Assembly: GCA_027306495.1 (NCBI GenBank)
Contig: DAHUZQ010000073.1
Location: 1-36,498 of the forward strand
DNA length: 36,498 bases
Direction: 5' to 3'
Source of the DNA: Actinomycetota bacterium
GTDB lineage: Bacteria > Actinomycetota > Actinomycetes > Streptosporangiales > Streptosporangiaceae
The notes under the pieces were generated by a model. That model was not told where the DNA came from. It searched no databases and was given only the letters and a program-made list of their open reading frames with translations. The position numbers were made by a program, and so were the translations under genes. Position 1 is the stretch's first letter. Every line of letters starts with the position of its first letter. Shown piece by piece: positions 2,761-5,606 of this stretch.

Positions 2761-3363
2761 TCATCCCGAGTGCAGCCCGCCAGACACGTGCCTGGTCACG
2801 GTCACATGCATGCCTGTGGGCAGCACCTGCTGACAGGCCCGCACGGAGGCCTGGAACTGCGGCGACAACGGGCTGATACCAGCATCCTTGAGAGACGTCG
2901 CGGGCAGGCCGTTCGCTGTCGGATCGGGGAAGCTCGGCTCGCCATGGCTGCGCATGCACCGGGCGAACTTCAGCAACACCGGGAGCGCTCGCTGTCGCTG
3001 CTGCTGTATCCGCTGCTCGATCTGTGAGATGTTCGGTCCGCCGCCAGCCAGCAGGTGCCGGCACGCCCCGTAAGCCACCTGTATCTGGCTGCTGTCGATG
3101 TCAACGGTCCCAGGCGGGCCGTTCGGCGACGTCGACAAGTTGAAACCGCCCGAGGCAGCTGGATCGGGGAAGTTCGGCGCGCCGTGGCTGCGCATGCAGT
3201 GCGCCAGGGCGACCTCCTGCGACAAGGTCACCGACGCTCCCAGGGCAGAGCCTGCCGCAGATGGAGCGCTGCCACACGCCGTGGCCAGCGCGGCCGCGGC
3301 TACGGCGACTGCCAGCGCTCCGCCACGCCGCGGGCCCGCCTTACCGCCGGTCTTGCGATTCAT
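2761..3363 (-). CDS. Putative lipoprotein with two CMRSHG-x-P-x-FPDP repeats
   Basis: This is a 200-residue exported protein. I place the start at the ATG at 3363, which has GGAG about 8 nt upstream; a longer frame adds 21 unlikely residues. The N-terminus is basic (NRKTGGKAGPRR), followed by an Ala-rich hydrophobic stretch ending LATAC-GS, a plausible lipobox. The mature part has two related motifs, HCMRSHGAPNFPDP and RCMRSHGEPSFPDP, each followed by a further Cys (GACRHLL and RACQQVL). Two similar modules with paired cysteines result. The motif is familiar from uncharacterised actinobacterial secreted proteins often found beside two-component systems and ABC exporters; no function is established to my knowledge. 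It is transcribed divergently from the OmpR-type regulator across a symmetric operator, suggesting it is a target of that system. Confidence 0.82.
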   Translation of the reverse strand: MNRKTGGKAGPRRGGALAVAVAAAALATACGSAPSAAGSALGASVTLSQEVALAHCMRSHGAPNFPDPAASGGFNLSTSPNGPPGTVDIDSSQIQVAYGACRHLLAGGGPNISQIEQRIQQQRQRALPVLLKFARCMRSHGEPSFPDPTANGLPATSLKDAGISPLSPQFQASVRACQQVLPTGMHVTVTRHVSGGLHSG

Positions 3364-3449
3364 CGCGTTCTCCTCGAAATGCGCGGTGGGTTTTCGCGTC
3401 TTTTCTTGTGTCTTTCTTCCGCCCACCCAATCTGTTGTACAGAAGGGGC

Positions 3450-3490
3450 GGTGACAGCACGGTGACTGAAAATGTCACCTGGCTGTCACC
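3450..3490. promoter_or_regulatory. Symmetric four-half-site operator between divergent genes
   Basis: Two GGTGAC half-sites start at 3450 and 3461. Two inverted copies, GTCACC, start at 3474 and 3485. Within each pair the offset is 11 bp, the usual spacing of the direct repeats bound by OmpR/PhoB-family dimers. The outer arms extend to GGTGACAGC/GCTGTCACC and the whole 41 bp is symmetric around TGAAAAT. It lies in the 192-bp gap between the lipoprotein and the response regulator, so each pair could serve one promoter. Confidence 0.65.
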
Positions 3491-3555
3491 GGTGGGCTGC
3501 GATCCTGCGAGCGGACAGCTGGCATACCGTGGGCGCAGGAAGAGGCGGGCAGGCG

Positions 3556-4218
3556 ATGCGGATCCTGGTGACCGAGGACGACGAGGTGCTGGCCATGGCG
3601 GTAGCGGCCGGGCTGCGCCGCGAGGGGATGGCCGTCGACGTGGCCCTGGATGGCGGTGCGGCCCTGGATCGCCTGGCGGTCAACCGCTATGACGTGGTGG
3701 TGCTGGACCGGGACCTGCCCGGCGTGCACGGCGACGACGTCTGCCGGGCGCTGGCGGCGGGCAGATCCGGCAGCAGGGTGCTGATGCTCACCGCCGCCAG
3801 GTCGGTCGGCGACCGGGTCGAGGGCCTCGGGCTGGGCGCCGATGATTACCTGCCCAAGCCGTTCGATTTCGCCGAACTGGTGGCCCGCATACGGGCACTC
3901 GGGCGGCGTGCGGCCGCCCCGCTGCCCGCCAGCCTCCAATACGGTGACCTGAGCCTGGACCCGGCACGCCGCGTCGCGGTCCGCGCCGGGCGCCGCCTGC
4001 CGCTCACCCCCAAGGAACTAGCCGTGCTGGAATGCCTGCTCGCCGCGGACGGGCGGCCGGTCCCAGCGGAGGAACTGCTCGAACGGGTCTGGGACGAAGC
4101 CGCCGACCCGTTCACCAGCACTGTGAAGACCACCGTCCGGCGGCTGCGGGCCAAGCTCGGCGACCCGCCGGTGATCCAGACGATCCGGGAAAGTGGCTAC
4201 TGCATCGGAGAACCCTGA
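3556..4218 (+). CDS. OmpR/PhoB-family response regulator
   Basis: This is a 220-residue two-component regulator. The receiver domain (residues 1-115) has the acidic pair D8/D9, phospho-acceptor D51 (VVLDRDLPG), T79 and K101 (YLPKPF). The winged-helix DNA-binding domain covers about 125-218, with LTPKELAVLECLL and the C-terminal hairpin TIRESGYCIG. I chose the ATG at 3556 because the receiver begins there (MRILVTEDDE) and GGCGGGCAGG precedes it; an upstream in-frame ATG would add 28 unrelated residues. Its stop overlaps the start of the sensor kinase (TGATG), so the two are translationally coupled. A four-half-site operator with OmpR-type 11-bp spacing lies upstream, suggesting autoregulation and control of the divergent lipoprotein. 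Confidence 0.97.
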   Translation: MRILVTEDDEVLAMAVAAGLRREGMAVDVALDGGAALDRLAVNRYDVVVLDRDLPGVHGDDVCRALAAGRSGSRVLMLTAARSVGDRVEGLGLGADDYLPKPFDFAELVARIRALGRRAAAPLPASLQYGDLSLDPARRVAVRAGRRLPLTPKELAVLECLLAADGRPVPAEELLERVWDEAADPFTSTVKTTVRRLRAKLGDPPVIQTIRESGYCIGEP

Positions 4219-5606
4219 TGCGCACCCCTCACCCCCGCCCCCGTCCGCACCGCTGGCTGCGGCTGCCCCGCCGTACCGCCCGGCTGCGCCTGACCGTCCT
4301 GTACGGTGCGGCGTTCCTGATCTGCGGCGCGGCCGTGCTGGCCGTCGTCACCTACCTGCTCTACCCGACGCCGCACCTACCGCCCGTGAGCCAGCTCAAG
4401 AGCTCACCCGTGCAGGCGGTCCATGCCAGAGTCCCCGCCGCCGACGTCCACCGGTCGGGCGCCTTCGACATAGTCAAAGTCCCCGTGATGATCCCCGCCG
4501 CCGACGTCCACCGGGTGGGCGCCTTCGACGAATACAACCTCCGGTACCCGGTCCGCGGCGGCTCCCAGCTCTCACCGAAGCCACCCGTCATCACCGCGGC
4601 TGAGCAGGCCCGGCTGCTTGCCAGAGCGCAGGTGAAAGTCAACTACGCCGAGCAGCAGATCCTGATCATCTCCGCCACTGCCCTGGCGGTCATCGCGGTG
4701 GCCGCCGCGGCGATCGGCTGGCTCATCGCCGGCCGGGTGCTGCGCCCGCTCAGCACGATCACCGCCACCGCCCGCCGGATCGCCGCCAGCAGCCTGCATG
4801 AGCGGCTGGCTCTGCGTGGCCCCGACGACGAACTCAAGGAACTCGCCGACACCCTCGACAACCTGTTCGCGCGGCTGGAGGCCTCGTTCGACGCCCAGCG
4901 GCGTTTCGCCGCCAATGCCTCGCACGAATTGCGCACCCCGCTGACCCGGGAACGCGCCCTGTTGCAGGTCACCCTCGCCGACCCGGCCAGCACCACCGGC
5001 ACGTGGCAGTCCGTCAGCCGGGAACTGCTCGCATCCAACGCCGAGCAGGAACGCCTCATCGAGGCGCTGCTCACCCTGGCCAGCAGTGAAAGCGGCACCG
5101 GCGAGCGTGAACCACTCGACCTGGCGGCCATCACCAGCGCCGCCCTGGACGCGGCCCGTCCTGCGATCAGCCGTCTGCGCCTGAATGTCCATGCCGATGT
5201 CCAGCCCGCCGTTCTCGATGGTGACCCGCTGCTGGTCGAGCGGCTGGTGACCAACCTGATCGGCAACTGCGTAGTCCACAACGTCCCCGGCGGGGATGTC
5301 CGCGTCGCCACCGGGTCCGGCAGTGGTCACGCCGTCCTGTCAGTCGCCAACTCGGGAGAGGCCATCCCGCCGGACGAGGTGGACCGGCTGTTCCAGCCCT
5401 TCCAGCGGTTCGGTCCACGCCACGCCCGCCGCGACGGCGGACATGGCCTTGGCCTGTCGATCGTCCGGGCCATCGCCATCACCCACCACGCCACTATCTC
5501 CGCCCGCCCGCAGCCCGGCGGCGGCCTGGCGATCGACGTTTCCTTCCCCCCGTCAACGGCGCAGCGGACCCCGCCCGGCGGGCCGGCTGGGCGGAGCGAG
5601 GGCTAG
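4218..5606 (+). CDS. Membrane sensor histidine kinase with HAMP domain
   Basis: This is a 462-residue partner of the preceding regulator. After a basic N-terminus comes helix 1 (about 24-48), an extracytoplasmic segment (49-147), helix 2 (148-172), HAMP (172-225), the dimerisation/phospho-acceptor helix with H236 in ASHELRTPL, and the ATPase domain. The N-box is N346/N350 and the G-box is GGHGLGLSIVRAIA (407-420). The start overlaps the regulator stop by one base. The sensor segment contains an in-frame near-duplication, PAADVHRSGAFD followed 20 residues later by PAADVHRVGAFD (residues 73-84 and 93-104). The signal is unknown; the CutS/BaeS-like architecture and the lipoprotein neighbour suggest an envelope stimulus. 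Confidence 0.96.
   Translation: MRTPHPRPRPHRWLRLPRRTARLRLTVLYGAAFLICGAAVLAVVTYLLYPTPHLPPVSQLKSSPVQAVHARVPAADVHRSGAFDIVKVPVMIPAADVHRVGAFDEYNLRYPVRGGSQLSPKPPVITAAEQARLLARAQVKVNYAEQQILIISATALAVIAVAAAAIGWLIAGRVLRPLSTITATARRIAASSLHERLALRGPDDELKELADTLDNLFARLEASFDAQRRFAANASHELRTPLTRERALLQVTLADPASTTGTWQSVSRELLASNAEQERLIEALLTLASSESGTGEREPLDLAAITSAALDAARPAISRLRLNVHADVQPAVLDGDPLLVERLVTNLIGNCVVHNVPGGDVRVATGSGSGHAVLSVANSGEAIPPDEVDRLFQPFQRFGPRHARRDGGHGLGLSIVRAIAITHHATISARPQPGGGLAIDVSFPPSTAQRTPPGGPAGRSEG
4432..4529 (+). repeat. In-frame 60-bp duplication in the sensor domain
   Basis: A 38-bp segment starting TCCCCGCCGCCGACGTCCAC at 4432 recurs at 4492 with only a small substitution at the RS/RV codons. The period is 60 bp (20 codons), so the frame is kept. 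It encodes the repeated PAADVHR-x-GAFD in the extracytoplasmic segment of the kinase. Confidence 0.85.

Follow-up and report, generated by a model that had tools for sequence, protein, structure and literature searches.

A conserved candidate operator of mirrored direct repeats between a lipoprotein gene and an OmpR/PhoB-family two-component operon in actinobacteria

The described site whose overall layout comes closest to the element analysed here is the AgrR box of Cupriavidus metallidurans, which belongs to an autoregulated OmpR-family regulator of the CopR/PcoR class and combines an inverted repeat with direct repeats that may be absent. The core of the box is ATTACA-N4-TGTAAT (6-4-6), and the outer repeats are imperfect and optional (PMC7380067). 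Several other regulators of the family are known to read direct repeats. AfsQ1 of Streptomyces coelicolor recognizes GTnAC-n6-GTnAC, described as a single-arm site; its gene is divergent from the target sigQ, a sigma factor, and its own operon is not controlled (PMC6988585). The actinobacterial MtrA, a global regulator with many sites, uses the direct repeat GtnAcC-n5-GTnAcn, and autoactivation has been suggested for it (PMC13189361). The PHO box and the sites of Mycobacterium tuberculosis PhoP are single tandem arrays of two direct repeats spaced with a period of 11 bp; a dimer in head-to-tail arrangement binds them by means of the recognition helix (PMC4832192, PMC4415409). Finally, CutR of Streptomyces, like the regulator described below an actinobacterial OmpR-family protein connected with envelope genes, has the motif TAWATAAA, and SPR found no CutR site at its own promoter (PMC12802291).

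Here we have analysed a stretch of 36,498 nucleotides (hereafter the window), in which positions 3450-3490 of the plus strand read GGTGACAGCACGGTGACTGAAAATGTCACCTGGCTGTCACC, i.e., GGTGAC-N5-GGTGAC-N7-GTCACC-N5-GTCACC. The GGTGAC hexamers start at 3450 and 3461 and the GTCACC hexamers at 3474 and 3485, giving a start-to-start distance of 11 bp in both arms around a 7-bp centre, TGAAAAT; hexamers, offsets and span are exactly those of the original prediction. That prediction had also counted 41 symmetric bases, which holds perfectly for the 24 bases of the hexamers but not for the whole 41 bp, where 15 of the 20 pairs are symmetric (in the operators of some relatives all 20 are). A repeat finder also called the inverted repeat, with arms at 3449-3466 and 3474-3491 that are 89% complementary. 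The full pattern occurs once in the window, with zero mismatches, and none of 100 dinucleotide shuffles of the window contained a match, even when up to three mismatches were allowed. Direct repeats with a period of 10-11 bp, about a turn of the helix, are what a tandem dimer of the OmpR/PhoB family requires, and both arms have 11 bp.

The element lies, as had been claimed, between divergent genes, one for a lipoprotein and the other the first of a response regulator/histidine kinase operon (Table 1). The regulator matches both families that define the OmpR/PhoB type above their cut-offs (PF00072 with 86.1 bits and PF00486 with 73 bits). Its best NCBIfam match was VanR-O (218.6 bits, cut-off 505), and MtrAB_MtrA (148 bits, cut-off 300) and CseB (144.8 bits, cut-off 350) fell short likewise, so that we have assigned it to none of the three. 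The nearest solved structure by sequence is PDB 7lz9 (E 1.7e-63), which we take to be VanR of the Streptomyces coelicolor type. In the predicted outer domain of the kinase, at about 4430-4540 of the window, PAADVHR-GAFD is present twice in frame, as if a short segment of the sensor region had been duplicated in tandem.

Table 1. Coordinates of the features in the window; sites and promoter elements are predictions.
Feature	Position	Strand	Remarks
41-bp dyad operator, two 11-bp direct-repeat arms mirrored	3450..3490		Dyad centre 3470; kept in relatives
Left arm, predicted tandem-dimer site, lipoprotein promoter	3450..3466	-	Outward reading GTCACC-GTGCT-GTCACC; GTnAC-n6-GTnAC geometry (PMC6988585)
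Right arm, predicted tandem-dimer site, regulator-operon promoter	3474..3490	+	GTCACC-TGGCT-GTCACC; kept in relatives
Predicted -10 TACAAC, lipoprotein promoter	3434..3439	-	10 bp from operator edge; left-flank positions 11-16 conserved, 69 loci
Predicted extended -10 TGC-GATCCT, regulator operon	3498..3506	+	Hexamer 10 bp from operator edge
Lipoprotein, 200 aa, two CMRSHGxPxFPDP repeats, partner gene of the operator	2761..3363	-	ORF; alignment with lipoproteins beside related operators
OmpR/PhoB-family response regulator	3556..4218	+	Pfam Response_reg and Trans_reg_C; recognition helix FTSTVKTTVRRLR, variable at 189, 192 and 195
Sensor histidine kinase	4218..5606	+	Pfam HAMP, HisKA and HATPase_c; start codon overlaps regulator stop codon

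To place the element in a wider frame we have used 80 related regulators, 68-92% identical, apparently from Streptosporangiaceae, Thermomonosporaceae, Micromonosporaceae, Streptomycetaceae and other families; with the window they give 81 upstream regions. The 250 bp upstream of each were scanned for GGTNNC-N5-GGTNNC-N7-GNNACC-N5-GNNACC at a threshold of at least 13 of the 16 fixed bases. This degenerate operator was found at 73 of the 81 regulators (window included), compared with 9 of 1620 shuffled upstream regions (0.6%). The remaining eight have no full element, and several of them keep a well-formed right arm only. The spacing is strict: with altered arm or centre spacing the loci that reach the threshold fall from 73 to 11 or fewer, and when the arms are left unchanged no other centre length gives more than five. 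The centre is thus kept as strictly as the arms, and the element behaves as a single composite operator. The 11-bp direct-repeat period, from which the original prediction had derived one dimer per arm, is conserved in each arm of the relatives too.

A search that ignored the position of regulators gave the same picture, with exact matches in 17 of 100 related genomes and none for a reversed control pattern. At 11 of the 16 loci outside this genome a regulator adjoins the element. At a further one (L098) the regulator gene is absent, or fused, and the promoter leads into the kinase frame. At L011, in G032, the element is flanked by a C-terminal remnant of the kinase and a lipoprotein gene, a complete regulator being absent. 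One match (L106) has flanks that resemble coding sequence and was left out as one that probably arose by chance. The genomes carry one or two copies, nearly always beside the regulator. The search of related genomes that had been proposed for the 41-bp pattern was therefore successful both next to the regulators and independently of them. By the measure of these comparisons the element is a real, conserved operator.

The gene on the other side of the operator differs from genome to genome. Its most frequent products are ABC-transporter ATPases or multi-spanning membrane proteins; some genomes have a protein whose signal is Tat-like (RRRFL), and others a lipoprotein with CMRxxG..FPDP repeats. 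These descriptions come from reading N-terminal sequences; the lipoprotein of the window is the one partner that was scanned against families, and Pfam and NCBIfam gave zero matches for it. Its structure model (mean pLDDT 62, pTM 0.42) was too poor to be fit for a fold search. The protein does align with the lipoproteins adjacent to the operator at seven loci (L011, L017, L018, L019, L062, L080 and L093), and lipoproteins of a family with two CMRxxG-P-FPDP repeats accompany operators of this type in several genera. Just past the 3' end of the lipoprotein gene, at 2584-2744, the window contains tandem arrays of a 29-bp unit (3.3 copies) and a 20-bp unit (3.5 copies).

The letters of the half-sites vary among relatives, at the dinucleotide NN of GGTNNC, and we have scored their agreement over 69 loci. 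Across the mirror, the dinucleotides agree in 46 of 69 outer pairs and 50 of 69 inner pairs (shuffled maxima 22 and 28); within the arms they agree in 27 and 47 of 69 (shuffled maxima 16 and 25). They also follow the recognition helix of the adjacent regulator. Regulators with T189/T192 have mostly GA half-sites, those with A189/T192 have GT and those with A192/N195 have CA, whereas H192 goes with mostly CG at the inner half-sites and CG or TC at the outer ones. V192 or M192 with AA half-sites are single cases, and additional loci fit or widen the pattern (Q192 with AT, V192 with TA/TG). Within the H192 group (e.g., L066, L070, L076, L082 and L095) many operators have GGTTCC outside and GGTCGC inside in both mirrored arms, which may mean that outer and inner sites differ in affinity.

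Shared ancestry could produce such an association, and we have repeated the comparison on a tree of the 80 regulators built with the helix masked, using an approximate parsimony with 7 to 21 changes that ignores branch lengths. By this approximate test column 195 ranks first of all regulator columns for co-change with the dinucleotide (6 of 12 changes, p 1.8e-5) and column 189 first for co-change with its second letter (4 of 7 changes, p 9.2e-5). Without the tree, column 192 and, outside the helix, columns 104 and 66 also score high; with the tree, 104 and 66 do not lead and 192 falls outside the leading group. Part of the raw association between letters and helix is due to relatedness. In a helix alignment made by eye, residue 189 corresponds to Val213 and 192 to Ser216 of M. 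tuberculosis PhoP, two residues that point towards the bases in the solved PhoP-DNA complex (PMC4832192). The comparison indicates that many actinobacterial genera share the layout, its letters changing along with the predicted DNA-reading helix of the regulator.

The genome of the window provides a case of its own. A paralogous regulator (G000:C169:15639-16292, L114), 73% identical to that of the window, has an operator with the same 41-bp scaffold and GGTCTC half-sites (CT), together with a helix A189/Q192/Y195 and a divergent gene for an ABC-type ATPase. Together with the covariation, the scaffold of this paralogue points to the adjacent regulator as the protein that binds the operator. Pattern searches of the whole genome found a single exact copy, that of the window, and one decayed copy with two mismatches on contig C206 (L016:1501-1541, G000:C206), in which the right arm and TACAAC are intact and the left inner half-site has decayed. 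The downstream side of this copy has no clear target gene, and it is probably a remnant. Single arms (GTGAC-N6-GTGAC) number 10, near the background of 6 for a reversed control pattern, and among them the spacing to TACAAC is kept only by the operator of the window and its copy on C206, so that we claim no wider regulon.

The mirror extends to the promoters. Read outward from the operator edges over the 69 loci, the left flank has the consensus CG-TACAAC and the right flank CTGG-CATCGT (TGG-CATCGT at positions 8-16), with both hexamers at positions 11-16, i.e., a predicted -10 element follows each arm at a distance of 10 bp. A promoter scan of the intergenic region found no consensus sigma-70 promoter with a -35 element. 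In the PhoB class the activator occupies the place of the -35 element, and activating PHO boxes lie at the -35 of the promoters that they activate. A distance of 10 bp between arm and -10 is as expected if the activator substitutes for the -35. A number of relatives have a start codon at a distance of 22-25 bases from the edge of the operator, on the left or the right. Since this is where transcription is expected to start, their messages may be leaderless there.

We consider it probable, at roughly 80%, that the element is a composite operator for two outward-facing tandem dimers (four protomers), each of which would replace one -35 and thereby activate, respectively, the regulator's own operon and the partner gene. 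The phosphorylated regulator would occupy both arms, one tandem (head-to-tail) dimer per arm and the two back to back, with four winged-helix domains reading the four GGTGAC half-sites. Each outward-pointing arm would stand in for the absent -35 and recruit RNA polymerase, so that the lipoprotein gene and the regulator/kinase operon would be activated in coordination, the latter by positive autoregulation. Binding, the arrangement of the dimers, the dependence on phosphorylation and activation over repression are what we infer from the sequence patterns. The original idea of one arm per promoter is supported by the symmetric -10 elements and by the co-change of half-sites and helix, but in a refined form: there is one composite operator, and the partner gene that it serves varies.

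How tightly the two arms are coupled is the point on which another reading deserves most consideration. A complete OmpR-type site is already present in one arm, and in some relatives just one of the two arms is well formed, so the arms could be independent neighbouring sites, uncoupled across the centre. We regard this as somewhat unlikely given the 7-bp centre in 73 loci against at most five for any other length, and half-sites that agree across the mirror as strongly as within the arms. The regulator might also repress one or both promoters, its own included, as a roadblock beside the -10 elements, the operator edges being just 10 bp from both; CutR, of similar type, represses from sites near the start (PMC12802291). 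Such autorepression is unlikely in our judgement, since no consensus -35 was found, the -10 elements are not occluded, the 11-bp repeats of each arm resemble activating PHO boxes, and AgrR, with its related box, has been interpreted as a positively autoregulated type II activator (PMC7380067).

As to the identity of the protein, the main binder could be a global regulator that reads GTnAC (a homologue of AfsQ1, MtrA, PhoP or GlnR) instead of the adjacent one, and each arm does fit both AfsQ1 GTnAC-n6-GTnAC (PMC6988585) and MtrA GtnAcC-n5-GTnAcn (PMC13189361). With the GTGAC letters of the window, regulators of the AfsQ1/MtrA type may indeed cross-bind. As the main binder, however, a global regulator is quite improbable: the GGTCGC, GGTGTC and GGTTCC half-sites of relatives break GTnAC, the scaffold staying as the adjacent helix changes, and the many single arms that it should have across the genome are observed only near background. 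The long dyad symmetry by itself would also suit an RNA hairpin, a terminator or a mobile repeat. This we take to be extremely improbable, because the element is upstream of both predicted start sites and would be transcribed from neither promoter, the scan found no terminator at it, and its copy number is just one or two per genome, nearly always next to the regulator.

The composite operator read by the adjacent regulator remains our preferred explanation. Whether it stands for a widespread new class of actinobacterial two-component operators, with a rigid 11-7-11 layout, symmetric -10 elements, dimers meeting across the dyad, and paralogues insulated from each other by changes confined to two base pairs in each half-site and to two or three residues of the helix, in a code that could be read from genomes, is a more ambitious proposition, to which we give even odds. 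An exact operator tied to an uncharacterised actinobacterial two-component family would allow its direct targets to be predicted whatever the genome; half-sites and helices that change in pairs would offer a natural series on how signalling is kept separate among related OmpR-family regulators; and the symmetric placement of four protomers between two promoters would raise the question of whether divergent promoters fire together or compete.

With respect to the systems mentioned at the beginning, we have found in the literature no description of mirror-paired direct repeats for an OmpR-family regulator, subscription journals being mostly outside the coverage; AgrR and AfsQ1 are the nearest. 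Compared with the AgrR box, the core here is GTGACN-N5-NGTCAC, the outer repeats are strict at 11 bp on both sides and there are two symmetric -10 elements; the centre is one base longer than the 4 bp of AgrR/CopR boxes in the same register, and other lengths are hardly used, so we have not included the element among them. AfsQ1 shares the geometry of each arm, GTnAC-n6-GTnAC being present in both. The locus differs from that of AfsQ1, where the regulator is divergent from sigQ, in that the divergent gene here is that of a lipoprotein without family match. Autoactivation, suggested for MtrA, is likewise what we propose here, although the present regulator is well below the MtrA cut-off. The PHO box and PhoP have the same period in other letters and without a mirror pair, the TAWATAAA motif of CutR (PMC12802291) is absent from the operator, and VanR provides the nearest solved structure by sequence (7lz9) and the best NCBIfam match (vanR-O), but with a score below the cut-off, so that the regulator is not a VanR-O. 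Single arms are therefore of a known kind (AfsQ1, MtrA, PHO box, PhoP), and it is their combination in a mirrored layout with symmetric predicted promoters that appears to be new, as a variant of the known OmpR/PhoB operators.
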